Below are positions 10,902 through 45,078 of a stretch of 51,190 nucleotides of DNA, piece by piece. The stretch comes from Gemmatimonadota bacterium (GTDB lineage Bacteria; Gemmatimonadota; Gemmatimonadetes; Longimicrobiales; Gaopeijiaceae). Positions within the stretch are counted from its first letter, which is position 1, and every line of letters starts with the position of its first letter. A model generated the notes under the pieces. It saw only the letters and a list, made by a program, of their open reading frames with translations. It ran no database searches and was not told the origin of the DNA. The DNA lies in NCBI GenBank assembly GCA_028873845.1, contig JAPPNO010000082.1:1-51190 (forward strand), in the 5' to 3' direction. Both the position numbers and the translations under genes were made by a program.

Positions 10902-12959
10902 CTACCCCGCCCCCCTCCTCCTCTCCAGCTCCGTCCGCACCTCAAGCGCACTATCCTCCGTAATCGGATACATATACACCGCAAAGATCGCGATCCCCGA
11001 CGCCACGAGCGGCACGAACGCATCATAAAACCGCAGCCAGAAAACCGTCCCCTCGGGCTGGTTCGCCCCGAGCGCCGGATCCAGGCCCGTCGAGTACAGC
11101 AGGAACCCGCCCAGCAGGAGCGCGAGGCTCTGGCCGACCTTCACCACCCACCAGAAGACCGATCCGAACATTCCCTCGCGCCGCTCTCCGGTGGTGAGTT
11201 CGTCCAGGTCCACCACGTCCGCGATCATCGACCCCATCAGCGTGAACAGTCCACCCAGTCCGAAGGCCAGGAACGGAGCGGGGAGCAGCGCCAGCATGGG
11301 GTATTCGGGCGTGTAGCAGAACCACTTGAGCACATAGCCGAACATCGAGATGCCCGTCGACACGAAGAACGCGTTCTTCTTCCCGATCTTCGTCCCGAGC
11401 CAGGTCACGATCACGATCACCAGGAAGCCGGAGACGGTCCCCAGCGTGGCCACCAGCCCCGCGAGCCCCGCCCCCTCCCCGATGTTCCCCCCGGAGACGT
11501 AGAAGGCGAAGACCCAGAACTGGAACTGGGAGATCATGATGAAGCTGTTGAAGATCAGGAAGGTCGCGATGCAGAGCACCAGGAACGGGCCGGTCGTGAT
11601 CGTTTGCAACAGACCCCGAATGAACTCCCAGACGCTCTCGCCGAAGCTCCTGCCCTCTTCGTCCGCCCCGCCGCCCCCACCCGCGTGCATGCGCTCCCGC
11701 AGGAAGATCGCGGGGATCACACCGAGGACGATGGTCGTCACGCAGATCGCCAGCGCCAGCAAGCGGGCCCCGGCCATCTGGTTCCGGAACCAGGCCGCGT
11801 TGGTCATGATCACGAGGAACCAGGGCCCGATCACGAACGCGATGTTCGAGACGAAGTTCTGCACGCCCATCAGGCGCGTGCGCTCGTTGTAGTCGGGGGT
11901 GAGTTCGTACCCGAGCGCGACCCACGGCGTGGCGAAGACCGTGTAGGCCAGGAAGAAAACCAGCGAGCCGATCAGGAAGTACCAGAAGTAGTACCCCTGG
12001 CTTCGCCCCTCGCCCGTCGGCTCCGGGGTCCAGATGTCCATGTGGACGTGCGTCATTCCGCGGGCGTCGACCGGGGTTTCGCCGAAGTCGATCGCGGCGA
12101 AGCGCATGCCGGTGTAGTGCTTGACGTCGTCGCCGGACGCCTGCGCGTCGGCCACCTCGGACTCGTCCCACGCGGTGGACCAGAACTGGACGGGGACGTC
12201 GTCGTAGGCGCCGGAGAAGAAGGAGATGACGTCTTCGGCCGGCACCGTGGGCGTGGGCGCGGCGGTGGACGGCGCCGTGGCTCCATCCACGTCCCGGCCC
12301 GTGGGCTCCGCACGCGTGGCGTCGTCGGTGCGGTAGAGGTAGACGTTGTCGACGTAGACTTCGGTCAGGTCCCCCGAAATCAGGATCTGTGAGAGGTGCT
12401 CGCGGGTGGAAAGCTGGTCGAAGTCGGTGAGCGGAACGTCAACGCTCACCCAGCCGCCGGTCACCAGCGCCGGAGGCAGGATGGTGACTTCGTCCTCGAC
12501 ATCGTCGATCAACTCGACCGTGACGATCCCCTTCAGCGAGTTCCCGACAGACTCCAGGAACCCGACCGGCTCACCGGTCTCGCCGCCGCTGTAGACGCCG
12601 TCGGCGCCATAGTCGACCAGCTTGAGGCGGAACTGGGTCGGCGCCGGCATCTGCCAGAGCAGCGCGAAGATGATCCCGGACGCGATCGCTCCCACGAACA
12701 GGAAGGGCCGCCGCCGCCCCCAGCGCGACTTCGTCTTGTCCGATATGAAGCCGACAAGGGGATCGGTGATCGCGTCGAAGGCCCGAGGCAGGCTGCCGAG
12801 CAGGCCGACGGCCCGGAAGTCCATCCCCAGGGCCAGGGTCAGCACGACCATCATGTTGCCGATGCCCTGCGCCAGCAGGTTGTTGACGAACCCGCCTATC
12901 CCGTAGCAGACCTTGTGCGGAAATGAGATGCGGTCTTTGGGGGCGGTCCGGTGGGTCAC
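10902..12959 (-). CDS. GPH-family sugar:cation symporter with inserted permuted glycan-binding-like domain
   Basis: A 685-residue MFS transporter of the glycoside-pentoside-hexuronide:cation group; usual members have 450-500 residues. Residues 1-106 give the first three helices, with the ITDPLVGFISDKTKSRWGRRRP loop. From residue 321 the fourth helix onward (YFWYFLIGSLVFFLAYTVFATPWVALGYELTPDYNERTRL is at 324-363) matches the family again. Residues 107-320 are an insert in the periplasmic loop between helices 3 and 4. It is homologous to the repeats of the surface protein at 15,039-18,047, but in swapped order: second half (FRLKLVDYGADG...VYVDNVYLY), linker, then first half (VPAEDVISFFS...MDIWTPEPT). 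The start is GTG 12959, 3 bases after the GH16 stop. Last gene of the glucan operon; presumed importer of beta-gluco-oligosaccharides. Confidence 0.88.
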   Translation of the reverse strand: MTHRTAPKDRISFPHKVCYGIGGFVNNLLAQGIGNMMVVLTLALGMDFRAVGLLGSLPRAFDAITDPLVGFISDKTKSRWGRRRPFLFVGAIASGIIFALLWQMPAPTQFRLKLVDYGADGVYSGGETGEPVGFLESVGNSLKGIVTVELIDDVEDEVTILPPALVTGGWVSVDVPLTDFDQLSTREHLSQILISGDLTEVYVDNVYLYRTDDATRAEPTGRDVDGATAPSTAAPTPTVPAEDVISFFSGAYDDVPVQFWSTAWDESEVADAQASGDDVKHYTGMRFAAIDFGETPVDARGMTHVHMDIWTPEPTGEGRSQGYYFWYFLIGSLVFFLAYTVFATPWVALGYELTPDYNERTRLMGVQNFVSNIAFVIGPWFLVIMTNAAWFRNQMAGARLLALAICVTTIVLGVIPAIFLRERMHAGGGGGADEEGRSFGESVWEFIRGLLQTITTGPFLVLCIATFLIFNSFIMISQFQFWVFAFYVSGGNIGEGAGLAGLVATLGTVSGFLVIVIVTWLGTKIGKKNAFFVSTGISMFGYVLKWFCYTPEYPMLALLPAPFLAFGLGGLFTLMGSMIADVVDLDELTTGERREGMFGSVFWWVVKVGQSLALLLGGFLLYSTGLDPALGANQPEGTVFWLRFYDAFVPLVASGIAIFAVYMYPITEDSALEVRTELERRRGAG

Positions 12960-12962
12960 GGG

Positions 12963-13760
12963 TCATCCGCTCCGGAAGACGCGCACCCAGTCGACGAGCA
13001 TGGTTTGCGGGAATGTCGTGGACTCGTCGGGCGGGCCGACGAAGCCGCCTCCCACGGCCACGTTCAGCAGGATGAAGAAGGGGTGGTCGAAGACCCACTC
13101 GCCCCCGCCGGTGTCCGCGGGGCGAACCGTGTGATAGTGCTCCCCGTCGACGAACCACCTGATCTCGTCTTCGGTCCACTCGATGGCGAATTCGTGGAAA
13201 TCCGTGTCGAAACGGGCACCCTGGAGTGTGTAGCGGGCGGTGACCCCCGCGCTTGCGGAGTAACCGGGCCCGTGCACGGTGCCGAGCACGACGCTCGGCT
13301 CCTGGCCGCGGTACTCCATGATGTCGATCTCGCCGCACTGCGGCCAACTAACCGTGTCGATGTCGTTGCCCAGCATCCAGAAGGCGGGCCAGATCCCCTG
13401 TCCGGTGGGAAGCTTGATGCGCGCCTCGAAGCGTCCGTGGGTCTGTTCGAAGAGGCCCTGGGTCTTGATGCGGCCGGAGGTGTACGCGCTTCCCATGTAG
13501 GACTCCTGACGCGCGGTGATGGCCAGGTTGCCGTTGCCGTCGAGCGACACGTTTTCGGGACGGTCGGTGTCGTACTCCAGCTGCTGGTTGCCCCAGTCGG
13601 TGCCGATGTCGAAGGCCCAGTTGGCGGCGTTCGGACTCTGGCCGGCGGGGCCTTCGAACTCGTCGCTCCAGACCATTTGCCATGTGGGGTCGTCACCGTC
13701 CCCTCCGCATGCCGGGAGGAGCAGGGGGATGAGGGGCAGGAAGATCGCTGTTCGTTTCAT
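12963..13760 (-). CDS. GH16 family beta-glucanase lipoprotein (laminarinase type)
   Basis: A 265-residue secreted glycosidase. A short signal peptide ends in the lipobox LLPAC (Cys18), so it is membrane anchored. The GH16 fold markers are clear: WSDEFEGPAG at 31-40, GRFEARIKLP and GIWPAFWMLG at 109-131, the catalytic GEIDIMEYRG at 143-152 (Glu144 nucleophile, Asp146 assistant, Glu149 acid/base), and the C-terminal HPFFILLNVAVGG and VDWVRVF. This motif form is typical of beta-1,3-glucanases cutting laminarin-like polymers. ATG 13760 overlaps the ROK stop (ATGA). No carbohydrate-binding domain is attached; binding appears to be provided by neighbours. Confidence 0.93.
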   Translation of the reverse strand: MKRTAIFLPLIPLLLPACGGDGDDPTWQMVWSDEFEGPAGQSPNAANWAFDIGTDWGNQQLEYDTDRPENVSLDGNGNLAITARQESYMGSAYTSGRIKTQGLFEQTHGRFEARIKLPTGQGIWPAFWMLGNDIDTVSWPQCGEIDIMEYRGQEPSVVLGTVHGPGYSASAGVTARYTLQGARFDTDFHEFAIEWTEDEIRWFVDGEHYHTVRPADTGGGEWVFDHPFFILLNVAVGGGFVGPPDESTTFPQTMLVDWVRVFRSG

Positions 13761-14992
13761 CGGGCATTCACTCCCGGAAAGAGGTTGGGATCGGCAAGGG
13801 CCGCCACCAGCACATGAGTGGCCGCCCCCAGGGCTGTAGCCCGGGGGCCGAGTTCGCTGGTGCGGATGTCGGAGGCGGCTGCCGAGGCGACCAGGGTGCG
13901 GCTGGCCACGGCCTCCTTGAGCGGTGTGACCAGCCGGTCGCCGAGGCGTGCCAGGCTGCCGCCCAGGATCACCGATCCGGGATTCATCAGGTTCAGGACG
14001 CCGGCGATCACGATGCCCAGGTTGCGGGCAGCCTCGTCGACCACCTTCAGCGCCAGGGGATCGTCGGCCAGGGCGGCGTCTTCGAGGGTCCATATGTCGG
14101 GGTCGGTTCCGGCCAGCACGCTTTGCGGGAAGTCGGACAGCAGCGTCCGGGTTCGCGCCACCAGAGCCCGGGTCCCCACGAATGTCGCCAGGCACCCCCG
14201 GTTTCCGCAGACGCACTGCGGTCCCCGCGGATCGATGGCCACGTGGCCGATCTCGCCGGCCACCCCGGTGGCGCCACGGTAGATCTCACCGTCGATCATC
14301 AGCCCGGCTCCGATCCCGGTCGCCACCTTCAGGTACGCGAAGTCGTCGATGCCCACCGCCTTGCCCCAATGGTGCTCGGCGAGCGCGCCCAGGTTGGCGT
14401 CGTTGTCGACGAAGACCGGGATGCCGAAACGCCCGCGCAGTTCGCCCAGCAAATCGAAATCGTGCCACGCGGGGAGGATGCGCTCGAGAATGCGGTACGG
14501 CGAGAGGGGGTCGACCGGACTCGGCACCGCGACGCCGATCCCCATCGGCTCGGGCGCGCCCGGTCCCCGCGCAGCCAGGCACGCCGCGCCCAACTCCACC
14601 GCTAGCGCGGCCGTCCCGTGCGGGTCGTTCCGCACCGGATGGGCCTCCTCCCGCCACTCGAGGACTCGCCCGCGCAGATCCGTGAGCGCCACCGAGACGT
14701 GCGCGGCACCGATGTCCACCCCGAGAATGGTGCTGGCATCATCCCGGAACCCGATCAGGATCGGCCTTCTGCCCCCGCGGCTCTCCCCGCTTCCCACCTC
14801 GTGAATCAGCCCGGTGGGCAGAAGCCGCGCCACCACCTCGGAGATCGTCGAACGGGAACGGCCGGTCCGGCGCGCGATCTCGGCCCTGGAGACCTCCCTG
14901 CGCCTCCAGACGAACTCCAGCACCTCGTTGGCCAGCCCGCCCTCGCGAGCAATGCCTGATCGGGCCGGCTTCGCGCGCGTCGGGGTGGTCAT
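13757..14992 (-). CDS. ROK-family transcriptional repressor (NagC/XylR type)
   Basis: A 411-residue regulator. A MarR-like winged helix lies at the N-terminus (LEFVWRRREVSRAEIARRTGRSRSTISEVVARL), followed by a sugar-kinase-like ROK domain with GVDIG near 90, VDNDANLGALAEHHWG, and the zinc motif CVCGNRGC with an upstream HVAI histidine. Such proteins bind a sugar and release DNA. I prefer ATG 14992, which has GGGAGAAG 2 bases upstream, over an ATG ten codons earlier. It lies second in the operon, 46 bp after the surface protein, and its likely operator is the palindrome at 18120-18144. The inducer is probably glucose or a beta-gluco-oligosaccharide; this is inferred from the operon. Confidence 0.92.
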   Translation of the reverse strand: MTTPTRAKPARSGIAREGGLANEVLEFVWRRREVSRAEIARRTGRSRSTISEVVARLLPTGLIHEVGSGESRGGRRPILIGFRDDASTILGVDIGAAHVSVALTDLRGRVLEWREEAHPVRNDPHGTAALAVELGAACLAARGPGAPEPMGIGVAVPSPVDPLSPYRILERILPAWHDFDLLGELRGRFGIPVFVDNDANLGALAEHHWGKAVGIDDFAYLKVATGIGAGLMIDGEIYRGATGVAGEIGHVAIDPRGPQCVCGNRGCLATFVGTRALVARTRTLLSDFPQSVLAGTDPDIWTLEDAALADDPLALKVVDEAARNLGIVIAGVLNLMNPGSVILGGSLARLGDRLVTPLKEAVASRTLVASAAASDIRTSELGPRATALGAATHVLVAALADPNLFPGVNAR

Positions 14993-15038
14993 CGCTTCTC
15001 CCGGTTGGGGACGCCCGTTCAAGGGCGGTGGGCCGCCG

Positions 15039-18000
15039 CTACCGGCGCAGGTACACGTTGTCCAGGAATACCGTGTCGGGATCTCCCGAGATGATCAGCT
15101 GTGCGAGATGCCCGCGCGCCGCCAACCCGCTGAACTCCGAGAACGGGATGTCGTAGCTGACCCACATGCCCGTGGCGAGCGCCGGATCGGACGCCGCCGT
15201 CAGCGTCAGCTCGTGTTCGCTGTCGTCCCCTCCGCCGAAGGCGCCGTCGGCCCCGAAGTCCACCAGCTTGACCCGGAACGCCGCCGGATCGGCGGTGGGG
15301 TCGGGAGTCCAGAAGTCAAAACGGAAGTGGGTCATTTCGCTGGCGTCGATCGTCGACGAGGTGAATTCGATCCCGGCGAAGACGAGGTTGGTGTACTTCT
15401 TGACCGTGTCCCCCTGGATGTCGACATCCTCGACATCGGCCTGGTCCCACGATGCCGACCATGTGTCCACGGTCACATCCGTGTAGGCGTCGCTGAAGAG
15501 CGAGATGACGCTGTCGGCCGCGTGGGTCGGGGTCGGTGCGGGTTCGGTGGGCTCGCTGGGTGTGCCGTAGAAGTACACGTTGTCCACAAAGACGGTGTTG
15601 GGGTCTCCGGAGACGATCATCTGGGCGAGGTGGGCCCGTTCGGCGAGGCCCTCGAAGGCCGAGAAGGGCACATCCAGCCCCACCCACCTGCCCGTCGCGA
15701 GCGCGGGATCGGTCTCGGCGGTGAAGGTCAGCTCGTGTTCGCTGTCGTCGCCCCCCTGGAAGCCGCCGTCGGCCCCGAAGTCCACGAGCTTCACGCGGAA
15801 GGCGGCGGGAGCGGCGGTCCCGTCCGGCGTCCAGATGTCCATGTGGAAGTGGGTCGTGCCCGAGGCGTCGACGGTCTGTGACGTGAACTCGATGCCCGCG
15901 AACACGAGGTTGGTGTACTTCTTCACCGCGTCCCCCCGCACGTCGGTGTCCTCCACATCCGCCTGGTCCCACCCGGCCGACCAGGTGTCGACGTTCGCGT
16001 CTTCGTAGGCGTCGCTGTATAGGGACACGACGCTTGCGGCCGGATGTGTCGGCGTCGGCGCCGGCTCGGCGGGCTCGGTGGCCGCGGGCGCGTAGAAGTA
16101 GACGTTGTCCACAAACACCGTGTTCGGATCGCCCGAAATGATCATCTGGGCGAGGTGGGCGCGTTCGGCGAGCCCCTCGAAGGCGGAGAAGGGAACATCC
16201 AGTCCCACCCATTCGGCGGTGGCGAGCGCCGGATCGGTCTCCGCGGTGAAGGTCAGCTCGTGCTCGCTGTCGTCGCCCCCCTGAAAGCCCCCGTCGGGGC
16301 CGAAGTCCACAAGCTTCACCCGTAAGGCCGCGGGCGCGTCGGTCCCGTCCGGGGTCCAGACGTCCATGTGGAAATGGGTCGCCGCCGAGGCATCCACCGT
16401 CTGCGACGTGAATTCGATCCCCGCGAAGACCAGGTTGGTGTACTTCTTCATCCCGTTGTCGTCGATCGCGATATCCTCCACGTCCGCCTGGTCCCACCCG
16501 GCCGACCAGGTGTCGACAAGCGCGTCTTCGTACGCGTCGCTGTAGAGCGACACAACGCCGGCCGCGGGATGGGCAGGCGTGGGCGCGGCCCTGGATGGTT
16601 CGGTCGGCCCCGGGGGTTCGGTGGTGAAGAAGAAGATGTTGTCGAGGTACACCGTCGGGCTCGCCCCCGAGATGATCAACTGGGCAAGGTGCCGCTTGTT
16701 CGCGAGCCCGGCGAAGTCGGAGAGCGGGATGTCGAGCACGTTCCAGGCGCCGGCCTGGATGGGAGGCATCGAGTTTTCGTCCAGGGTGATCTCGTGTTCG
16801 GTGTCGTCGCCTCCGCCGAAGACGCCGTTGCCGCCGAAGTCGACCAGCTTGATGCGGAAGGCGGACGGATCGTTCGTCCACAGGTCCACGTGCATGGTGG
16901 TCATCCGGCCGGCGTCGACGGGCTGCGAGGTGAACTCGATGCCGGCGTAGTTCAGGTTGGTGTACTTCTTGGCCCCGTTGCCCGCGATCGTCACGTCCGC
17001 CACATCGGCCTGGTCCCACTCCGCCGACCAGGTGTCCACATGCACGTCGTCGTACGCATCGCTGAAGAGCGAGATCACGTCTTCGGCGGGGACCGTCGGG
17101 GTGGGCGGCGGCTCGCGTGGCGGTTCGGTCACGGTCACGGTCACGGCGCCGCTCGCCTCGGTCGATCCGAGCGCCGCGGTGATGGTGGCGGTGCCGGTGC
17201 CGACCAGGGAGATGTCGCCGGTCGCGGTCACGGTGGCCACGCTGTTGTCCGACGAGGTGAAGGTGAAGTAGTGGGGTGAGGCGAAGACGGTCTGGTCCTT
17301 GCCGTCCACGTCGAAGGTCACCTGGGTGCCCCCGACTCCAAGCGTGCCCCCGACCTCGCCCGCCACCGACTGGGTAGCGATGGCCGGCCGCGGGTTGATG
17401 ATCGTGCCCAGCCGTTCGAACTGCACGTCGTCGAAGTAGATGGTATAGCCCACATCGTACTCGGAGCCCTCGGCCATCAGGAAGAGGCCGGTTTCGCGCG
17501 ACAGCCTGGAGGGCAGGGGAATGGGGACGGCGTACTTTGTCCAGCGCGTGGACAGCGGGAGACCTGCCATGGTGGCGGGGTAGAGGGAGTTCCCGGTGTT
17601 GTCGTTGCCGATGCCGACGGTGTTCAGCGTCGCGGCGGTGGTGGCCTTGGCCCAGAAGGTGAGCGCATCGAACCCGGTCAGGTCGCGTGGCACTTCGGCG
17701 TAGAAGACGCCGCCGGCGTAACTGCCCGACGGGTCGGATGGGGCCGGAATGGTGAACTTGAGGGCGGCGGTTCCCCGATATACCTCCTCGTACTCGATGT
17801 CCAGCGCATCCACCTTGGAGCCGCCGAAGGCAGAGAACTGGACCGACGGCCCAAAGGCGTCGTAGAAGACCTCCGGTTCCGCGGGGTAGGGCGCCGGTTC
17901 GAGCATGTCGAGGTCCCGCGTGCACGTCGTCGAGAGGAGGAGAATCGCAAGTGTGGGTGCCATTCCCCATCGAGCGCCCCGCGCCGACCCGGCGCCTGGC

Positions 18001-18047
18001 CGCTCTCGGTCCGCGTGCTGATTCCTGTGTGGGGTGCTCGCTGTCAT
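15039..18047 (-). CDS. Surface glycan-binding-like protein: CBM-like domain, Ig-like domain and four tandem repeats
   Basis: A 1,002-residue secreted protein, first gene of the glucan operon. Order: hydrophobic leader near residues 29-42; a jelly-roll-like domain (about 58-215, FYDAFGPSVQFSAFGG to YTIYFDDVQFE); a Big2-like Ig domain (about 227-307); then four repeats at roughly 314-474, 489-652, 663-827 and 837-1002, spaced 174-175 residues. Each begins PTPxxPAxxVxSLFSDAYxD and ends TVFxDNVYF, a pattern known from laminarin-type loci of marine Bacteroidota. Repeats 2 and 3 differ at only about 20 of 163 positions. Starts at 18047 or 17963 are both possible; the second gives a more compact signal sequence. 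Likely role: holding glucan at the cell surface. That is inferred from repeat type and neighbours. Confidence 0.85.
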   Translation of the reverse strand: MTASTPHRNQHADRERPGAGSARGARWGMAPTLAILLLSTTCTRDLDMLEPAPYPAEPEVFYDAFGPSVQFSAFGGSKVDALDIEYEEVYRGTAALKFTIPAPSDPSGSYAGGVFYAEVPRDLTGFDALTFWAKATTAATLNTVGIGNDNTGNSLYPATMAGLPLSTRWTKYAVPIPLPSRLSRETGLFLMAEGSEYDVGYTIYFDDVQFERLGTIINPRPAIATQSVAGEVGGTLGVGGTQVTFDVDGKDQTVFASPHYFTFTSSDNSVATVTATGDISLVGTGTATITAALGSTEASGAVTVTVTEPPREPPPTPTVPAEDVISLFSDAYDDVHVDTWSAEWDQADVADVTIAGNGAKKYTNLNYAGIEFTSQPVDAGRMTTMHVDLWTNDPSAFRIKLVDFGGNGVFGGGDDTEHEITLDENSMPPIQAGAWNVLDIPLSDFAGLANKRHLAQLIISGASPTVYLDNIFFFTTEPPGPTEPSRAAPTPAHPAAGVVSLYSDAYEDALVDTWSAGWDQADVEDIAIDDNGMKKYTNLVFAGIEFTSQTVDASAATHFHMDVWTPDGTDAPAALRVKLVDFGPDGGFQGGDDSEHELTFTAETDPALATAEWVGLDVPFSAFEGLAERAHLAQMIISGDPNTVFVDNVYFYAPAATEPAEPAPTPTHPAASVVSLYSDAYEDANVDTWSAGWDQADVEDTDVRGDAVKKYTNLVFAGIEFTSQTVDASGTTHFHMDIWTPDGTAAPAAFRVKLVDFGADGGFQGGDDSEHELTFTAETDPALATGRWVGLDVPFSAFEGLAERAHLAQMIVSGDPNTVFVDNVYFYGTPSEPTEPAPTPTHAADSVISLFSDAYTDVTVDTWSASWDQADVEDVDIQGDTVKKYTNLVFAGIEFTSSTIDASEMTHFRFDFWTPDPTADPAAFRVKLVDFGADGAFGGGDDSEHELTLTAASDPALATGMWVSYDIPFSEFSGLAARGHLAQLIISGDPDTVFLDNVYLRR
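15042..17108 (-). repeat. Four coding tandem repeats of about 523 bp
   Basis: Units at about 17,108-16,626, 16,583-16,092, 16,061-15,567 and 15,539-15,042. The middle two are nearly identical in DNA, which points to recent unequal crossing-over or gene conversion. An assembly could collapse or expand this array, so the copy number should be treated with care. Confidence 0.85.
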
Positions 18048-18119
18048 CGTTCCATCCCGAGTTTGATCGGGTACCCCCGGAGCCCAGCGACAATGCGGAG
18101 CACCGGAACACCACGCCTG

Positions 18120-18144
18120 ACTTTGTTCGGTTGCCGAACAAAGT
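18120..18144. promoter_or_regulatory. Perfect 25-bp palindrome, likely ROK repressor operator
   Basis: ACTTTGTTCGG at 18120-18130, spacer TTG, then its exact complement at 18134-18144. The TTTGTT...AACAAA form resembles operators of XylR-type ROK repressors. It lies 73 bp upstream of the surface protein start and about 20 bp downstream of a TTGACA box, where it would cover the -10 and start-site region. Confidence 0.75.
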
Positions 18145-18163
18145 GCGGGGGGTGATCCTTCGG

Positions 18164-18169
18164 TGTCAA
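18164..18169 (-). promoter_or_regulatory. Consensus -35 box of the glucan operon
   Basis: TTGACA read on the minus strand, a perfect sigma-70 -35 box. The matching -10 would lie at about 18,141-18,146, where only a poor CACTTT-like hexamer overlaps the palindrome edge. A weak -10 under repressor control is plausible. Confidence 0.5.
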
Positions 18170-18284
18170 GGATGATTGGGGTCCGGACCGGTGGGCGGCT
18201 CAACTGCCAACGCCGTACCGGTGCGGGAAACCGGGGGGCCGGCCAGGTGACGGCGGCGCCCGCGCGCACACCATGCGCCGGCCG

Positions 18285-38126: not shown

Positions 38127-40505
38127 TTACGGAATCAGCACTCTCGGTACCCGCTTCACGAAGAAAACGCCCTCCTTGCCCGAGGTCACCACGATGATCC
38201 CGCTTTCGAAGTACGGGTAGTTGCTCCACGACCCGTCGAAGCCCGGCGCATCCTCGTCCCACGGCACCGTGTCGAAGAAGCCGATCTCCACCGGATTCTC
38301 GCGGTCGGAGATATCCAGCACGCGCAGGCCGCTCACGTAGTTGGACTGGTACATGAGGTCGCCGCGGATGTACAGGTTGTGGTCCGAGGAGGTGTTCTCC
38401 GAGAAGTGTTCCTTGACCATGACCGGGTCGTCCAGGTCCTTCACATCCCACACCAGCGTGCGGGTGTTGGAGACCATGCCGTCGAGCTCGTCGAGCTCGT
38501 CGTTCATGTAGAAGTACTCGTGGCTTTCGTCGATCCAGCCCTGGTGGGAGTAGGAGGCGTTGGGATAGGTGCTCATCGCCAGCGCCACGGGGGCGCTCTT
38601 GTCGGTCACGTCGGCGATGCTCAGCGCGGTCTCGTTGGACCCGAAGCAGATCTCCTTGCCCCGGTGTTCGGTGTCCGGCCCGTCGTAGACGATGCACATG
38701 GCGTCGTGGCTGTAGCCGGTCTTCGCCCGCCCGGTCGCGGCGTCGGCGAAGCAGCCGGCGAAGGCCGGGTTCCGCGGATCGCGTATGTCGATCATGTGGA
38801 GACCGCCGCCGCAGGTGTCGCCTCCTCCGCTGGATCCCACCGAGTACGCGAATCCGGTGGTCTCGTTGATGACGATGTTGTGGGCGCTGTGGATCCCGTC
38901 GTAGCGCGCCGTTTCCTCGAAGGTGACGGATTCGCCGGTGGCGTCGCGCAACCGGGTGAGGTCGAAGACCTGCATGCCGTGCCGGCCGGCGTTGTCGGAG
39001 ACGATGAAGGCGTGATTCGCGTAGACCTTGATGTCGCGCCAGGTGCTCGGACTTGCCCCTTCGGTCAGCGGCAGATTGCCGGCGTTTCTCGGGTGCGCGG
39101 GGTCGCTGAGGTCGATGAAGGAGGTGCCGTCGTAGCGGCCCACGATCGCCCACTCCGTACCCGTGACCGGGTCGGTCCAACCCCACACGTCGTTGACCTC
39201 GACACCGCGCCCGCCGCCCAGCTGCTGCACCGGCAGGAACGACACGATGTCGACGCTGGCGCAGGTGAAGACATCGGCGGACCCGTCCTGGCAGGCGACC
39301 TCGTCGCCGGTGATGGGGTCGAGGCCGGCGACTTCGCTGGCCACCCGGACCCCCCGGGTCCAGCCGTCGCCCTGCCGCTCGATGATCGCGGCGGTGCCCA
39401 GTCCGTAATCGTCTTGCCCCACCCCCACGACCCCGATGTTCTCGCCCAGCGCGAGGACCGACCCCATCTGGTCGCCTGGAGACAGCCCATCCACGGAGAA
39501 CTTCGTCATCGCGCCCCAACCGCCGCCTCCCGGCTCGGGCGACATCACGTAGTAGCGTCCCTCGAATCCTCCGGCTCCCGGCGCCGCGATCCAGATGTTC
39601 TCGCCGCCGATCTTCAGTGCGACGCCGAATCGGGTCCCGTAGTCCCCGTCGAAGGGCTTGTAGACCGCATCCGCGCGCCACTCGCCCGACGACTCGTCGA
39701 GGACGTAGCCGTGAACCGCCCCGGCGAACCCGTCCTGACCCATTGCTCCGATCATCGCCATGCCGTCGCGCATCGCCACCGCCGACCCGAACTGGGTGTT
39801 CCGCCCGGATTCCTCGAGTTCCAGCTTGGCCGTCTCGGACCAGCTGCCGTCGGTCCCGCGGCGGAAGACGTAGACGGCGCCCTGACGCTGGTTCTTCCGC
39901 ATCGTTCCGATCAGCGCGTACTCGCCGTCGATGGCCATCGCGCTCCCGAACCAGTCCTGCGGCTCGGCGTCGCTTGCCATGAGCTTGGCCTCTTCGCTCC
40001 ACCGGCCGGAATCGTCGCGCGCCAGCACGTACACGGCGCCGCGGCCTTCGTCATGTCCCCAGGCGGCCACGAGCGCCACGCCGTCCCCCACCGCCATGGC
40101 CCGCCCGAAGGACTCGCCCGCGCCCACGTCGCTCGCGGAGATCTTCGCGGTCTCTGCCCAGACCCCCGAGTCGCTGCGGCGGAAGACGTAGACCGCGCCC
40201 CGGGTGTCGTCGATCACCGTCGATCCGACCAGCAGATCGCCGTCCACCACCGCCAGCGCCCGCCCGAAGTGGTCCCCGGCGACGGCGTCGGACGCCGATA
40301 GACGTTGCGCTTCGGTCCAGCCGCCTCCGTTCATGCGGTAGACGTACACGTACCCAGGGTGCCGTTCGTTGAGCGACTCCCCGACGAGGACGTCACCCCC
40401 GCTGACTGCGGCGGAGGTGCCGAAGCCCTGCGCAGCGGCCCGCGATGGTTGCGAGAGGAAAAGCAGCGACACGAACAGGGGAAGAATGGACGGCCTCAAG
40501 ATCAT
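38127..40505 (-). CDS. Choice-of-anchor B family protein with FG-GAP repeats (copy 2)
   Basis: A 792-residue exported protein. The signal peptide ends near AAAQ. Residues 30-390 carry about six FG-GAP/integrin-like repeats (for example HFGRALAVVDGDLLVGS, SFGRAMAVGDGVALVAA, FGSAMAIDGEYALIG). The rest is the LVIVD-repeat 'choice-of-anchor B' domain: DIVSFLPV, WGWTDPVTGTEWAIVG, GLHMIDIRDPRNPAFAGCFAD, GYSHDAMC and SDHNLYIRGDLMYQSNYVSGLRVLDIS. It ends without any visible C-terminal anchor. The start ATG 40505 has AGGAGG only 2 bases ahead, oddly close; a TTG 2 codons later would have ideal spacing. Surface adhesion or ligand binding is plausible; function unproven. Confidence 0.85.
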   Translation of the reverse strand: MILRPSILPLFVSLLFLSQPSRAAAQGFGTSAAVSGGDVLVGESLNERHPGYVYVYRMNGGGWTEAQRLSASDAVAGDHFGRALAVVDGDLLVGSTVIDDTRGAVYVFRRSDSGVWAETAKISASDVGAGESFGRAMAVGDGVALVAAWGHDEGRGAVYVLARDDSGRWSEEAKLMASDAEPQDWFGSAMAIDGEYALIGTMRKNQRQGAVYVFRRGTDGSWSETAKLELEESGRNTQFGSAVAMRDGMAMIGAMGQDGFAGAVHGYVLDESSGEWRADAVYKPFDGDYGTRFGVALKIGGENIWIAAPGAGGFEGRYYVMSPEPGGGGWGAMTKFSVDGLSPGDQMGSVLALGENIGVVGVGQDDYGLGTAAIIERQGDGWTRGVRVASEVAGLDPITGDEVACQDGSADVFTCASVDIVSFLPVQQLGGGRGVEVNDVWGWTDPVTGTEWAIVGRYDGTSFIDLSDPAHPRNAGNLPLTEGASPSTWRDIKVYANHAFIVSDNAGRHGMQVFDLTRLRDATGESVTFEETARYDGIHSAHNIVINETTGFAYSVGSSGGGDTCGGGLHMIDIRDPRNPAFAGCFADAATGRAKTGYSHDAMCIVYDGPDTEHRGKEICFGSNETALSIADVTDKSAPVALAMSTYPNASYSHQGWIDESHEYFYMNDELDELDGMVSNTRTLVWDVKDLDDPVMVKEHFSENTSSDHNLYIRGDLMYQSNYVSGLRVLDISDRENPVEIGFFDTVPWDEDAPGFDGSWSNYPYFESGIIVVTSGKEGVFFVKRVPRVLIP

Positions 40506-40677
40506 CACCTCCTGGAGTTGGCCCGGCCGCGCCCATCGCAGCCGGCTTGGACGGCGTCACGGCGCGGCACACGCGCCGCCCCGTTTGCGCTTCATCATTC
40601 AATCATAGCGAGATCGAAGCATGGAGGGCACGCGCCGCCGGCTGCCCAACCCGGCCTGGCAAACCCGACCATCCAAC

Positions 40678-43125
40678 CTACGACACCGCCGGCGGCCGCT
40701 TCTTCAGAACGAAGAGCCCTTCCTTGATACTCGACACGATGATCACGCCGCTCTTGAAGTACGGGTAGACGCTCCAGGCGCCCGCGAACCCCGCCTTGTC
40801 CTCGCCGAACGGCACGGTGTCGAAGAACCCCACCTCGCGCGGCTCCTCGGGGTTGGAGATGTCCAGGATCCGCAGCCCGCTGAGGTAGTTGGCCTGATAC
40901 ATCAGGTCGCCGAGGACGTACAGATTGTGGTCCGACGACCCGGTCGTGCCCAGGTGCTCCCTGACCAGCACCGGATCCTCGAGCTCGCTGATGTCCCACA
41001 CCAGCGTCCGGGTGCGGTCCACGCTGCCGGCGAGTTCGTCGGTCTCGTCGTTCATGAAAAAGTAGCGGTGATCGTCCGAGAGCCATCCCTGGTGCAGGTA
41101 TCCGGCGTTCGGGTAGGTGGCTATCGACAGGGCAACGGGCGCCTCCTTGTCGGTCACGTCCGAGATCGAAAGCGCGTTCTCGTTGGCCCCCAGGCAGATT
41201 TCGCGGTCACGGTACTGTTCGTCCGGACCCTGATAGCGCACGCACTGGGCGTCGTGGCTGTAGCCCGTGCGCGCGTTCCCCGACTGCGCGTCGGCGAAGC
41301 AGCCCGCAAACACGGGATTCCGTGGATCGCGGATGTCCACCATGTGAAGCCCGCCCCCGCACGTCTCGCCGCCCCCCGAGGCCCCCACCACGTAGGCGAA
41401 CCCGGTCTCTTCGTTGATCACGATGTTGTGGGCCGAGTTGATGCCGGTATAGCGGGCGGTCGGCTCGAAGGTCGCGGGAGGATCGGCAACGTCGCGCAGC
41501 CGGGTGAGGTCGAAGACCTGCACGCCGTGCGCCCCGGCGTTGTCCGCCACCACGAACGCGTGGTCGCGATAGACCTTGATGTCGCGCCACATGTTTGGCG
41601 TCGCCCCTTCCGTCAGGGGCAGTTCGCCCAGGTAGACCGGGTTTGCGGGATCGGTCAGGTCGACGAAGGTCGTCGCGTCCGACCGTCCCATGATGGCGTA
41701 TTCGCGCCCCGTTTCGGGATCCGTCCACCCCCACAGGTCGTTGGCGATCGCGCCACGCTGACCACCCACCGCATGGGTCGGCAGGAAGGCGACCAGGTCG
41801 ACCTCGCCGCAACCGAATCCGCCCGCCGAGCCCCCCTCGCACCCGATCTCCCCACCGACCAGCGCCTCGAGTTCGCCGCCCTCGTCAAAGATCCTGCCCT
41901 CGGACCGCCACCCGCCGGGAGTGCGGCCGAATAGGAATCCCACCCCTTCGAAGAAGTCGGCTCCGGGCGCGCCAACCACCGCCATGTCCCCGCCCAGCGC
42001 AACGGCCAGGCCGTAGAAGTTGAACGGACCCCCGGGGCCGAACCGGGCGACCTCCTCCCAATCGCCGGACTCGGCCCTGCGAAACGCGAACCCGCCGCCG
42101 GTACCGCCGCCCGCCAACGGCGTCCCCGCCACGACATCGTCCCCGGAGGCGGCGATCGCCATGCCGAACCCGGAAGCCGCCTCGGGTGTCACCGGCTGGA
42201 TCGTGTGTGCGTGCGACCACGCCGCGCCCGTGCCCGCCCCGGTGCGGGTGAAGTGGTACACGGCGCCGCTCAGCTGCCCTCCGAGAGGCGCACCCGTAAA
42301 GATGTCGCCCTCGGATACGGCCACGCTGGCTCCCATGGAGGACGGCACGGGCTCGGGTGGATCGAGGCGCACGAGCGGCGTCCAGGTTCCCGTCGTCCGG
42401 CCGAACACATAGACCAGCCCCGGCTGCAGATCGGGAACGCCGGTGCCCGGGATGAGGGAAATCTCCCCGCCCGGCGCGCCCACCGCCAGCAGGTCGTCCT
42501 CTGCGGCGAGCGCGGTGCCGTATCTTGCGCCGTCGGGCAGGTCGGCGGGCTGGAGGGCCCCGACGAGGGTGTAGCCGGCCGCGCCCGCCCGGAAGACGAA
42601 GACCGCGCCCCTTCCTTCGTCGGCCCCGGGCGCACCGACCAGGATGTCGCTCCCGTTCGCGGCAACCGCCGCCCCGAATCGGGTATCCGCCGTCGCCTCG
42701 TCCCAGGCGAGTCGCTCGCTCAGCGACCACCCTCCGTCTTGCCGGTGGTACACGTACACTGCTCCGGCCCCTTCGCCCGGTGCGCCGACCGCCAGCACGT
42801 CGCCGCTCACGTCCAACCCCTCGCCGAAGCCGGTGGCGGCCTCGGTCACGGGCGCCGGCAGCGATGCAGTCTGGGTCCAGCCGTCACCTGTGCGGGTGAA
42901 GACGTGTACCCCCCCTGCGCGGTTTCCCGGCATGGGGAAGATCGCGAGTCCGCCGGGCCTTCCCACGAAGATCTCGTCGCCCTGCACCACGACGCTGGCC
43001 GAAAACGCGGTCGCCGCGGTCGTGAAACGGGGTCCGGCTGTGGTCTGTGCGGCTACGGCCGAAGGGGAGCCGGCGAGCAATGCTACGGCGGTGCTTGCGT
43101 AGAATCCGGCGAGGCGGGTGTCCAT
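40678..43125 (-). CDS. Choice-of-anchor B family protein with FG-GAP repeats (copy 1)
   Basis: An 815-residue paralogue of the downstream gene, with the same build: signal peptide to about AVAAQ, FG-GAP repeats (GFGEGLDVSGDVLAVGAPG, RFGAAVAANGSDILVGAPG, GFGMAIAASGDDVVAGTP), then the LVIVD domain with GWTDPETGREYAIMG, GLHMVDIRDPRNPVFAGCFAD and SDHNLYVLGDLMYQANYLSGLRILDIS. The C-terminal halves are very similar; the repeat halves have diverged more. A 172-bp gap separates the two genes, so they may be separate transcripts. As in the partner, no anchor is visible at the C-terminus. ATG 43125 opens the signal peptide. Confidence 0.85.
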   Translation of the reverse strand: MDTRLAGFYASTAVALLAGSPSAVAAQTTAGPRFTTAATAFSASVVVQGDEIFVGRPGGLAIFPMPGNRAGGVHVFTRTGDGWTQTASLPAPVTEAATGFGEGLDVSGDVLAVGAPGEGAGAVYVYHRQDGGWSLSERLAWDEATADTRFGAAVAANGSDILVGAPGADEGRGAVFVFRAGAAGYTLVGALQPADLPDGARYGTALAAEDDLLAVGAPGGEISLIPGTGVPDLQPGLVYVFGRTTGTWTPLVRLDPPEPVPSSMGASVAVSEGDIFTGAPLGGQLSGAVYHFTRTGAGTGAAWSHAHTIQPVTPEAASGFGMAIAASGDDVVAGTPLAGGGTGGGFAFRRAESGDWEEVARFGPGGPFNFYGLAVALGGDMAVVGAPGADFFEGVGFLFGRTPGGWRSEGRIFDEGGELEALVGGEIGCEGGSAGGFGCGEVDLVAFLPTHAVGGQRGAIANDLWGWTDPETGREYAIMGRSDATTFVDLTDPANPVYLGELPLTEGATPNMWRDIKVYRDHAFVVADNAGAHGVQVFDLTRLRDVADPPATFEPTARYTGINSAHNIVINEETGFAYVVGASGGGETCGGGLHMVDIRDPRNPVFAGCFADAQSGNARTGYSHDAQCVRYQGPDEQYRDREICLGANENALSISDVTDKEAPVALSIATYPNAGYLHQGWLSDDHRYFFMNDETDELAGSVDRTRTLVWDISELEDPVLVREHLGTTGSSDHNLYVLGDLMYQANYLSGLRILDISNPEEPREVGFFDTVPFGEDKAGFAGAWSVYPYFKSGVIIVSSIKEGLFVLKKRPPAVS

Positions 43126-43299
43126 GGTGTTTCGACTTCCTGGTTCAGGGGCCGTGCGGGGCCGACTCCGGGCGGGCGACTCCGACCGACAAGGCACCAA
43201 TAATCGGGCCAGACGCTCCAGGCCACCAGATCGTGCGCGCGCCGTGCCGGATCGTGCCATCTTGAAGCACCACGTTCGCCAATGTGCCCGGAGATCCCG

Positions 43300-45078
43300 A
43301 TGGCCCCAATCCGCATCCGCACGCTCGTCGCCGTCGCGCTCGGCGCGGGGACGGTCGGCGCCGGCGCGTCCTGCGACCCCGGTGCACAGCCCGTCCATCT
43401 GGCCACGGCCCACCAGATGGGTCCGGTTGCGTACCGCGATCCCGCTGGCGGCATCTCCTCCGACGGTCGCCTCCTCGCATACACCCAGGGCCGCGAACTG
43501 CTGGTGCGGGACCTCGCCGCGGGTGAAGTCCGCAGCCTCGGACTCGCCCCCAGCCAGCTCCGGTACGTCGCCTGGCACCCCGCCGGCGACCGGTTGCTCG
43601 TGCACGAACGCTCCTTCGACCGGCGCCGGCAGGCGTGGTTCGTGTATGACCTCGAGAGCGGGGCCAAGCAGACGATGTGGGGCACGGGGTACGCCGCCGG
43701 GCCCGCGCCCTCCACCCTGCTGGAGCTCAGCTGGGCCCCCGACGGTGGATCGCTGGTCGGCGTGGTCCGGAACTCCCGCCTCTCCACGGTCTGGCGCGTC
43801 AACGCCGATGGCGCGCGTGGGAAGGTGGTAGCCGAAAGCCTGAACCTATCCTACCCCGTGGTCTCTCCCACCGGTGAAGTCGCCTGCGTCGAGCGGTACG
43901 GAGGCCGACAGTACCTACGCTACCCGTGCGCCCAGCCGCGCGTCCACTGGCTGGACGGGCACCAGCCGTACGGACACGTCGCGTTTTCCCGTGACGGCGC
44001 CGATATCCACTACGCCGCGCCCAACGACGACGGGGTCCTCGAACTCTGGACCCGTCCCGTGGGCGGCGGTGAAGCGCGGCGGCTGGCCATCGCCGAGCGG
44101 GACGCCTACGGACCCGCAGTCACCGCCGATGGGAACATCGTCTACCGCAGCCAGCACTACATGGTCTCCCTCTCCGCGGTCCCCGCCGCGGGCGGCCCGG
44201 TCAGGCGCATCACCACCTTCCAGTCCGAGACCCCGACCTGGAGTCCCGACGGCACCGAAGTCTCGTTCACCTTCGGCCGCTGGCGCGTCGCCACCGACGA
44301 TGTGCTGTACCCGGACATCGACCAGCACATCGGCACCGTGGACGCCGCTTCGCCATCACCCAGGACGGCGCCCGACCGGATCATCCGTAGCTCCTGGTCC
44401 GAGGACCAGGGCATGCACTGGTCGCCGAACGGCCGCTGGATCACCTACCACAGCCACATCGGCGCCACCGACGACATCTACCTGATCCCCGCCGACGACC
44501 CCTCCGACCCCCGCATCATCTCCGAGGACGGCCACGAGACCGGCTGGCCACGCTGGTCACCCGACGGCCGCTGGATCGTCTTCCCGACCTATGCGCGCGA
44601 CGCTGCCGGGGCACGCAGGAGCTTCCTCCATGTCATCCCGGTGGACCAGGAGACCGGCGAGACGCTGGCACAGCGAGCGGTCGACCTTGGCGACTTCCGC
44701 CACGACGCGCTCCAGGCCGAGTGGACTCCGGACTCGGAGGGACTGGTGTTCGAGGCCGCGGAAGGGGCGGGCAGGAAGGCGCTTTACCGGATCCCGCGCG
44801 AAGGCGGCACGCCCGAGCGCTTCCACGAATGGACTTCGGACCAGGTGCACTCAGGGATCTCGGTGTCGCCGGACGGGGCGTGGGTCGCGTACATCGGGCC
44901 CGACAGCGCCGGGTTCTTCCAGGTGTACCGGGTGCCGCTGGGCGGAGGGAAGGCGGAACAGCTCACGGTGGACCCGACGCGCAAGACCCAGCCGGCCTAC
45001 GATCCGACGGGAAAGTGGCTGGCGTATACGGTGTTCAGCTATGAGGCGAGGTTCTGGCGAGTGGAAAATGTCAAGTAA
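43300..45078 (+). CDS. TolB-like PD40 beta-propeller protein
   Basis: A 592-residue exported protein, probably a lipoprotein (GAGASC at about residue 20). It contains repeated WD40-like PD40 strands: DPAGGISSDGRLLAYTQG, ELSWAPDGGSLVGVV, ETPTWSPDGTEVSFTFG, GMHWSPNGRWITYHSH, WPRWSPDGRWIVFPTY and QPAYDPTGKWLAYTVF. This is the pattern of TolB and of the propeller part of prolyl oligopeptidases, but no peptidase domain follows. ATG 43300 has GGAGA 7 bases ahead; an ATG 6 codons earlier is less likely. Likely a periplasmic binding or scaffold protein. Confidence 0.82.
   Translation: MAPIRIRTLVAVALGAGTVGAGASCDPGAQPVHLATAHQMGPVAYRDPAGGISSDGRLLAYTQGRELLVRDLAAGEVRSLGLAPSQLRYVAWHPAGDRLLVHERSFDRRRQAWFVYDLESGAKQTMWGTGYAAGPAPSTLLELSWAPDGGSLVGVVRNSRLSTVWRVNADGARGKVVAESLNLSYPVVSPTGEVACVERYGGRQYLRYPCAQPRVHWLDGHQPYGHVAFSRDGADIHYAAPNDDGVLELWTRPVGGGEARRLAIAERDAYGPAVTADGNIVYRSQHYMVSLSAVPAAGGPVRRITTFQSETPTWSPDGTEVSFTFGRWRVATDDVLYPDIDQHIGTVDAASPSPRTAPDRIIRSSWSEDQGMHWSPNGRWITYHSHIGATDDIYLIPADDPSDPRIISEDGHETGWPRWSPDGRWIVFPTYARDAAGARRSFLHVIPVDQETGETLAQRAVDLGDFRHDALQAEWTPDSEGLVFEAAEGAGRKALYRIPREGGTPERFHEWTSDQVHSGISVSPDGAWVAYIGPDSAGFFQVYRVPLGGGKAEQLTVDPTRKTQPAYDPTGKWLAYTVFSYEARFWRVENVK

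Follow-up and report, generated by a model that had tools for sequence, protein, structure and literature searches.

The symporter operon

The window (the whole stretch of DNA that was analysed, 51,190 nt from a Gemmatimonadota bacterium) carries on its reverse strand an operon that encodes, in order, a surface lipoprotein, a ROK-family regulator, a GH16 enzyme and a symporter. Successive genes are separated by 16, -4 and 3 bases. The components are as follows.

15039..18269, minus strand: surface lipoprotein, first gene of the operon, with a Big_2 domain and four CBM-like repeats (open reading frame, lipobox-like LLSTTC, Big_2 and repeat HMM)
16626..17078, minus strand: surface repeat 1
16092..16556, minus strand: surface repeat 2
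15567..16031, minus strand: surface repeat 3 (modelled by AF2, CBM-like fold)
15048..15509, minus strand: surface repeat 4
13757..15022, minus strand: ROK-family regulator (Pfam ROK, E 4e-55)
12963..13760, minus strand: GH16 beta-1,3-glucanase/laminarinase, probable lipoprotein (Pfam GH16; PDB 2hyk, E 1e-77)
10902..12959, minus strand: MFS_2/GPH-like sugar:cation symporter with insert, 685 aa (intact open reading frame; Pfam MFS_2, E 4e-58; AF2 model)

The true start of the surface lipoprotein gene probably lies near positions 17963-18047. The GH16 gene, which overlaps the ROK gene by 4 bases and ends 3 bases ahead of the symporter start, is the only GH16 gene of the genome, and its product is closely homologous to beta-1,3-glucanases (PDB 2hyk, E 1e-77). 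This homology, coupled with the operon setting, makes beta-1,3-glucan the likely substrate of the locus. In relatives, the symporter is adjoined by GH3 and GH2-like genes. More than 20 matches to TonB-dependent receptors are present in the genome, none of them on the contig of the window. Elsewhere in the window, two similar long reading frames (38127-40508 and 40678-43605, minus strand) stand head to tail and are apparently tandem paralogues.

The symporter reading frame begins with GTG and runs uninterrupted, without an internal stop, for 685 amino acids. Pfam MFS_2 (PF13347) matches the product in two segments, of which that at residues 310-668 is the main one, with 197 bits against a curated cut-off of 27, and the N-terminal residues 11-102 can be aligned to MelB. 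The AF2 model has the 12-TM MFS fold (pTM 0.80) and resembles MFSD2A (Z 38.2) and MelB (Z 36.4) in its transporter fold. Furthermore, two helix-II aspartates of the cation site (D62 and D66) are invariant in 29 sequences and align with the DAINDP motif of MelB. To our knowledge, neither MelB nor MFSD2A has a large domain in the loop between TM3 and TM4. The symporter scores 160 bits against NCBIfam TIGR00792, which represents the strict GPH family and has a threshold of 231. Relatives that lack the insert described below also reach only 163-178 bits, and the shortfall is therefore a property of the subfamily rather than of the insert.

A permuted surface repeat in the TM3-TM4 loop

In the AF2 model, TM3 occupies residues 84-101 and TM4 begins at residue 321. 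Between them lies an insert of 213 residues. The original prediction had recognized a foreign block between these helices; its presence holds, and its borders are refined from residues 107-320 to residues 106-318. The parts of the gene, and the corresponding stretch of the surface gene, are listed below.

12645..12935, minus strand: transporter core TM1-TM3, residues 9-105, ending ...LLWQMP (AF2 helices 13-101; MelB alignment)
12006..12644, minus strand: insert in the TM3-TM4 loop, residues 106-318, one full surface-repeat period, circularly permuted (alignment E 2e-48; missing from 70 relatives)
12330..12638, minus strand: repeat second half within the insert (FRLKLVDYGADG...VYVDNVYLY), residues 108-210 (repeat HMM positions 73-155)
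12507..12587, minus strand: extra loop within the second half, residues 125-151 (alignments; AF2 pLDDT about 45)
12231..12329, minus strand: linker joining the old C and N termini (...AAPTPTVPAED), residues 211-243 (homologous to inter-repeat linkers; orthologue linkers)
12018..12230, minus strand: repeat first half within the insert (VISFFSGAY...MDIWTPEPT), residues 244-314 (repeat HMM positions 1-73)
10914..12005, minus strand: transporter core after the insert, residues 319-682, comprising the remainder of the original loop (EGRSQ) and TM4-TM12 (AF2 helices 321-682; alignment to insert-free relatives)
15288..15812, minus strand: surface-gene stretch in phase with the insert, running from the second half of repeat 3 through the linker into the first half of repeat 4 (alignment)

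In BLASTP, residues 1-212 of the insert align contiguously with surface-protein residues 820-994 (E 2e-48); the same insert also matches residues 645-819 of that protein (E 9e-48). Both matches cover exactly one 175-residue period across a repeat junction, consisting of a second half, an APTPT-type linker and a first half. The repeat-unit HMM reads every full-length insert, in the window and in orthologues, in this same order: positions 73-155, then 1-73. Compared with the tandem homologue, the halves are swapped and the old termini are bridged by the linker of the array itself, which is the pattern by which permutation of the swaposin kind is recognized. Judged from these alignments, the exchange of halves is genuine and lies well outside anything expected by chance. 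They bear out the earlier proposals that the insert is homologous to the repeats encoded by the first gene, that its halves are exchanged around a linker, and that it corresponds to a slice taken out of phase from a tandem array.

Protein identity between the insert and the surface repeats is about 42-52%, and the insert is longer only by a loop of ~25 residues in its second half and by an extended linker. The extra loop (window 12507-12587), which the original prediction had overlooked, is partly amphipathic (PVGFLESVGNSLKGIVTVE) and lies between GG and DD motifs; it does not occur in the surface repeats, is shorter in one related locus (L042) and is modelled by AF2 at low confidence. It might face the membrane.

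For the insert, AF2 predicts a ten-strand beta-sandwich with strand pLDDT values mostly of 70-94. Its strands (residues 110-116, 154-160, 170-176, 189-196 and 200-209 before the linker; 244-248, 268-274, 277-283, 287-291 and 304-310 after it) have counterparts in the model of the surface repeat (77-84, 97-103, 116-122, 135-143 and 147-154; 2-5, 25-31, 34-40, 44-48 and 61-68). The strands of the two AlphaFold models pair one to one once the order is swapped between strands 6 and 7. The insert is thus predicted to be one folded, circularly permuted CBM-type beta-sandwich, which runs counter to the refuting case of an insert that does not fold as one domain. The cut point falls in the eight-residue turn that joins repeat strands 6 and 7, in keeping with the earlier placement of the cut in a loop between two strands. 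Given how short this turn is, the ends of the insert should sit close together.

The topology of MFS transporters would put the TM3-TM4 loop on the periplasmic side. With 6 K/R and 1 D, the TM2-TM3 loop is basic. The insert, by contrast, is acidic (39 D/E against 10 K/R) and free of Cys. These features together point to the periplasm, and the insert is predicted to lie on the periplasmic face of the transporter.

The model of the surface repeat matches several carbohydrate-binding modules, namely CBM30 (Z 13.2), CBM8 (Z 12.6), CBM11 with beta-1,3-1,4-glucan (Z 12.5) and the laminarin-binding CBM X584 (8qx6, Z 10.6); a fold in common with CBMs is by itself no demonstration of function. These CBMs resemble the surface repeat in fold but differ from it in sequence, with identities of 13-16% and no match at the level of a sequence family, and they are borne on enzymes or surface proteins rather than within transporters. 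Searches of the PDB with the repeat sequence and with the repeat profile returned no true relative, and neither the surface protein nor the symporter hit a Pfam CBM family, even with matches admitted up to E 1. Pfam and NCBIfam returned no family for the surface repeats, and the repeat family has no Pfam entry.

Distribution of the insert and evidence for a single gain

The insert was found in 22 genes from 20 genomes, and one more gene is truncated by a contig end (G005). Its carriers are the genus of the window, three further genera of the same family (G030, G071 and G072) and Candidatus Palauibacter, a member of another order. Every full-length orthologue has the same cut point. Several of the genes lie on chromosome-scale contigs: the assemblies of G001, G021 and G072 are single contigs, and the contig with the G071 gene measures 1.9 Mb. 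An assembly artefact is thereby excluded. The same insert and cut point in 20 genomes, together with the intact frame in the window, also dispose of the possibility, considered when the insert was first noticed, that a gene error had joined two reading frames. The closest orthologue, at 95% identity (L041:6726-8787 in G007), is disrupted: its frame is split into overlapping open reading frames of 647 and 231 aa, either as a pseudogene or through a sequencing error. Two other genomes each carry two insert-bearing paralogues (L050 and L051 in G008; L052 and L008 in G019).

All 70 of the distinct insert-free relatives that were checked lack the insert and have a short TM3-TM4 loop of near-constant length. 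These relatives come from Gemmatimonadota, Calditrichota, Ignavibacteriota, Zixiibacteriota, Bacteroidota, Verrucomicrobiota, Myxococcota and Pseudomonadota. Measured between the GRRRP motif and the conserved motif with which TM4 ends, the spacing is 53 residues in all but six distant members, which have 51. Their loop resembles WQLPEGRSESFYFWYF, and the loop of insert-bearing genes reads WQMP, insert, EGRSQGYYFWYF. Because the host loop is complete and apparently no donor residues were lost, the event appears to have been a clean insertion of one period. Insert-bearing symporters outside Gemmatimonadota were sought by a single, non-exhaustive related-locus search with the patterns LLWQ[MI]PAP and YT[VI]FATPW, which is biased to close relatives.

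In a tree of the transporter core from which the insert was left out, all insert-bearing genes group in a single clade (SH-aLRT 100, one change). A long stem of 0.8 changes per site leads to this clade, which lies inside the insert-free Gemmatimonadota relatives, and none of its members has been seen to lose the insert. This result indicates a single gain. Within the sampled genomes, the insert is confined to this clade and is missing from orthologues in the rest of Gemmatimonadota and in other phyla, which answers the earlier concern that it might be an old trait of the phylum.

The insert-bearing symporters of Candidatus Palauibacter and its kin (L086, L088 and L089) fall inside the clade of the window's genus, a position that suggests transfer between orders or shared paralogues. 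The names of the metagenome-assembled genomes that hold the insert-bearing loci L078-L097 point largely to sponges and corals (RHO, SB06, Plut, Palauibacter), and those of insert-free Gemmatimonadota orthologues (L098-L124) to lakes, sediments and mine waste. A host link is thus suggested by record names alone. The same CBM-like repeat protein is also encoded near insert-free GPH-like symporters in several phyla (L098-L123), including Calditrichota, Ignavibacteriota, Zixiibacteriota, Bacteroidota and Thiothrix. The pairing of repeat protein and transporter therefore looks older, or more mobile, than the insertion.

Donor and proposed origin

When the inserts were re-permuted and placed in a tree with surface repeats, they formed one clade (support 100) within a clade of 84 rows (support 95). 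The other 65 rows of the larger clade are all surface repeats of insert-bearing genomes, mostly second or later ones. Since the inserts are nested among repeats of their own lineage, the donor was most likely the surface protein of that lineage, after its first repeat had diverged. The tree of insert halves that the original prediction called for gives a divided answer: the combined tree places the inserts among own-lineage repeats, whereas free trees of the second half alone did not recover the donor clade and drew in a long branch (L116). The half-by-half signal is weak, and constraining the donor clade gave a higher likelihood than the free searches. Neither half rejects the donor-clade grouping (AU p 0.93 and 0.80). 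We consider it quite likely that the donor was among the surface repeats of the operon itself, and on the combined tree it was a non-first repeat.

We are highly confident of the architecture and the origin of the insert. In an ancestor of one Gemmatimonadota clade, the TM3-TM4 loop of an MFS_2/GPH-like symporter received an out-of-phase copy of one full period of CBM-like repeat, the source most likely being the surface lipoprotein encoded upstream in the same operon. The cut fell in the turn between repeat strands 6 and 7, with the host loop retained as WQMP, insert, EGRSQ. At the DNA level, a slice may have been copied with equal phase at both ends, or a circle may have been excised by recombination between repeats and then integrated. 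The two routes are not separable, because selection for a foldable domain also requires equal phase. The insertion event is old, and purifying selection has since kept the insert in place while species split, paralogues arose and, probably, genes passed between orders.

Selection on the insert and its proposed function

GC3 in the insert (0.913) is close to that of the flanks (0.917 and 0.916). Over ten pairs, dN/dS (Nei-Gojobori) is 0.10-0.27 for the folded part of the insert and 0.09-0.26 for the TM4-TM12 core, and in most pairs the two are similar. The insert is maintained under purifying selection. In the extra loop and linker, dN/dS is 0.20-0.49.

Near-invariant residues were defined on 170 surface repeats and are given in repeat numbering. 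Most of them are fixed in the inserts (W67, W116, Y9, Y39, Q137, D150 and N151), as is the acidic cluster D95-D96-E98-E100. W17 is retained in 84% of inserts, and W21, which is invariant in the surface-repeat alignment (A4), in 74%. E48 of the surface repeats is D in all inserts. The changes at W21, W17 and E48 suggest that the specificity of the insert may have shifted or that binding may have weakened.

We propose that the insert would serve as a built-in periplasmic module that binds the beta-1,3-gluco-oligosaccharides set free by the operon's GH16 laminarinase. Such a module would raise the local concentration of oligosaccharides at the mouth of the importer, or would gate it. The chances that glycan binding is the function of the insert are even or marginally better.

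The main rival holds that the insert is a docking module and not a sugar binder: it would bring in the GH16 lipoprotein, or connect to the CBM-repeat lipoprotein, and so cluster hydrolysis and uptake. There is a precedent in PepT1 and PepT2 (SLC15, POT family), MFS transporters whose extracellular domain consists of beta-sandwiches that bind trypsin and have no obvious role in peptide transport (PMC4597091). An enzyme is also at hand in the same operon, its gene ending 3 bases before the symporter start, and some conserved repeat residues are altered in the inserts. However, the near-invariant residues of a glycan-binding-type fold are mostly retained, and the probable lipoproteins may be located in the outer membrane, too far away to be reached. 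On this analysis, recruitment of a partner protein is an unlikely alternative with a real, if minor, share of the probability.

A little less probable still is that the domain arrived by chance, folds harmlessly and was kept because clean removal is hard or because the loop now depends on it. A single ancient gain and the fast evolution of the linker and extra loop (dN/dS 0.20-0.49) agree with this idea, but purifying selection acts on the folded part about as strongly as on the transporter, the acidic and aromatic residues of the surface repeats are retained in nearly all inserts, and no loss is seen in the insert-bearing clade. The selection data in particular make a mere structural role less likely.

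Next to no probability attaches to an assembly chimera, frameshift or gene-calling error that fused two genes, an idea that could draw on the draft status of the window's assembly and the broken frame in G007 but is refuted by identical borders in 20 genomes of several genera, single-contig assemblies among them, and by GC3 and selection like those of the rest of the gene. An old trait of GPH-like transporters unrelated to the operon repeats is just as improbable, having no supporting point and being refuted for the sampled genomes by the 51- or 53-residue spacing in 70 of 70 insert-free relatives and by the homology of the insert to the operon repeats, among which it nests.

Returning to the proposed binding module, the insert probably helps to keep at the transporter entrance either fragments of beta-glucan or the enzyme that produces them. 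The more specific picture, in which the importer carries a covalent periplasmic glycan-binding domain taken from the CBM array of its own operon and captures beta-glucan oligosaccharides at its mouth, perhaps with gating by ligand, could go either way. The account as a whole (out-of-phase origin, a retained permuted CBM-type domain and binding of beta-gluco-oligosaccharides at the importer mouth) seems to us reasonably probable.

Relation to known systems and implications

A literature search for MFS or GPH transporters with a CBM or another periplasmic domain insert found none, within a coverage in which subscription journals are thinly represented. The original prediction that no symporter of this build had been described stands for the combination; its separate parts have precedents. 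Only the combination of a CBM-type domain, a sugar symporter and a source in an operon partner is new, as far as we have found.

The PepT1/PepT2 case is alike in that an MFS symporter bears a beta-sandwich in an outward-facing loop, in one lineage only, with the core unchanged and an accessory binding role. It differs in having two Ig-like domains that bind a protease and are unpermuted, in belonging to another MFS family, in being mammalian and in lacking an operon-partner origin. The swaposin, or plant-specific insert, of plant aspartic proteinases is likewise a circularly permuted copy of a tandem-array domain inside an unrelated protein, and its permutation has been explained from duplicated units (PMC3320104). 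Swaposin, however, is a helical saposin domain in a soluble protease, whereas the Gemmatimonadota insert is a beta-sandwich in a membrane transporter, with its array in the same operon and its linker kept.

The P2 loop of MalF, in the maltose ABC importer, is a periplasmic domain inserted in a loop that helps to present the sugar ligand. P2 differs from the symporter insert in belonging to an ABC transporter and in serving as the docking site of a binding protein that is a separate molecule, and it is no permuted CBM. Secondary sugar symporters are generally regarded as working without binding domains.

In the insert-bearing clade, a symporter gained a domain and kept it by selection. Because donor and recipient stand in one operon, the insertion event can be read directly: a full period, a cut in a turn and an intact host loop. 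The insert-free sister transporters constitute a natural experiment on the effect of an accessory domain on an MFS importer. The insert itself is a natural circular permutant for domain-insertion studies and a design for fusions between binding modules and transporters. If the proposed function is correct, the symporter would capture oligosaccharides as substrate-binding domains do for ABC importers, which would bear on beta-glucan uptake by marine Gemmatimonadota associated with sponges and corals.
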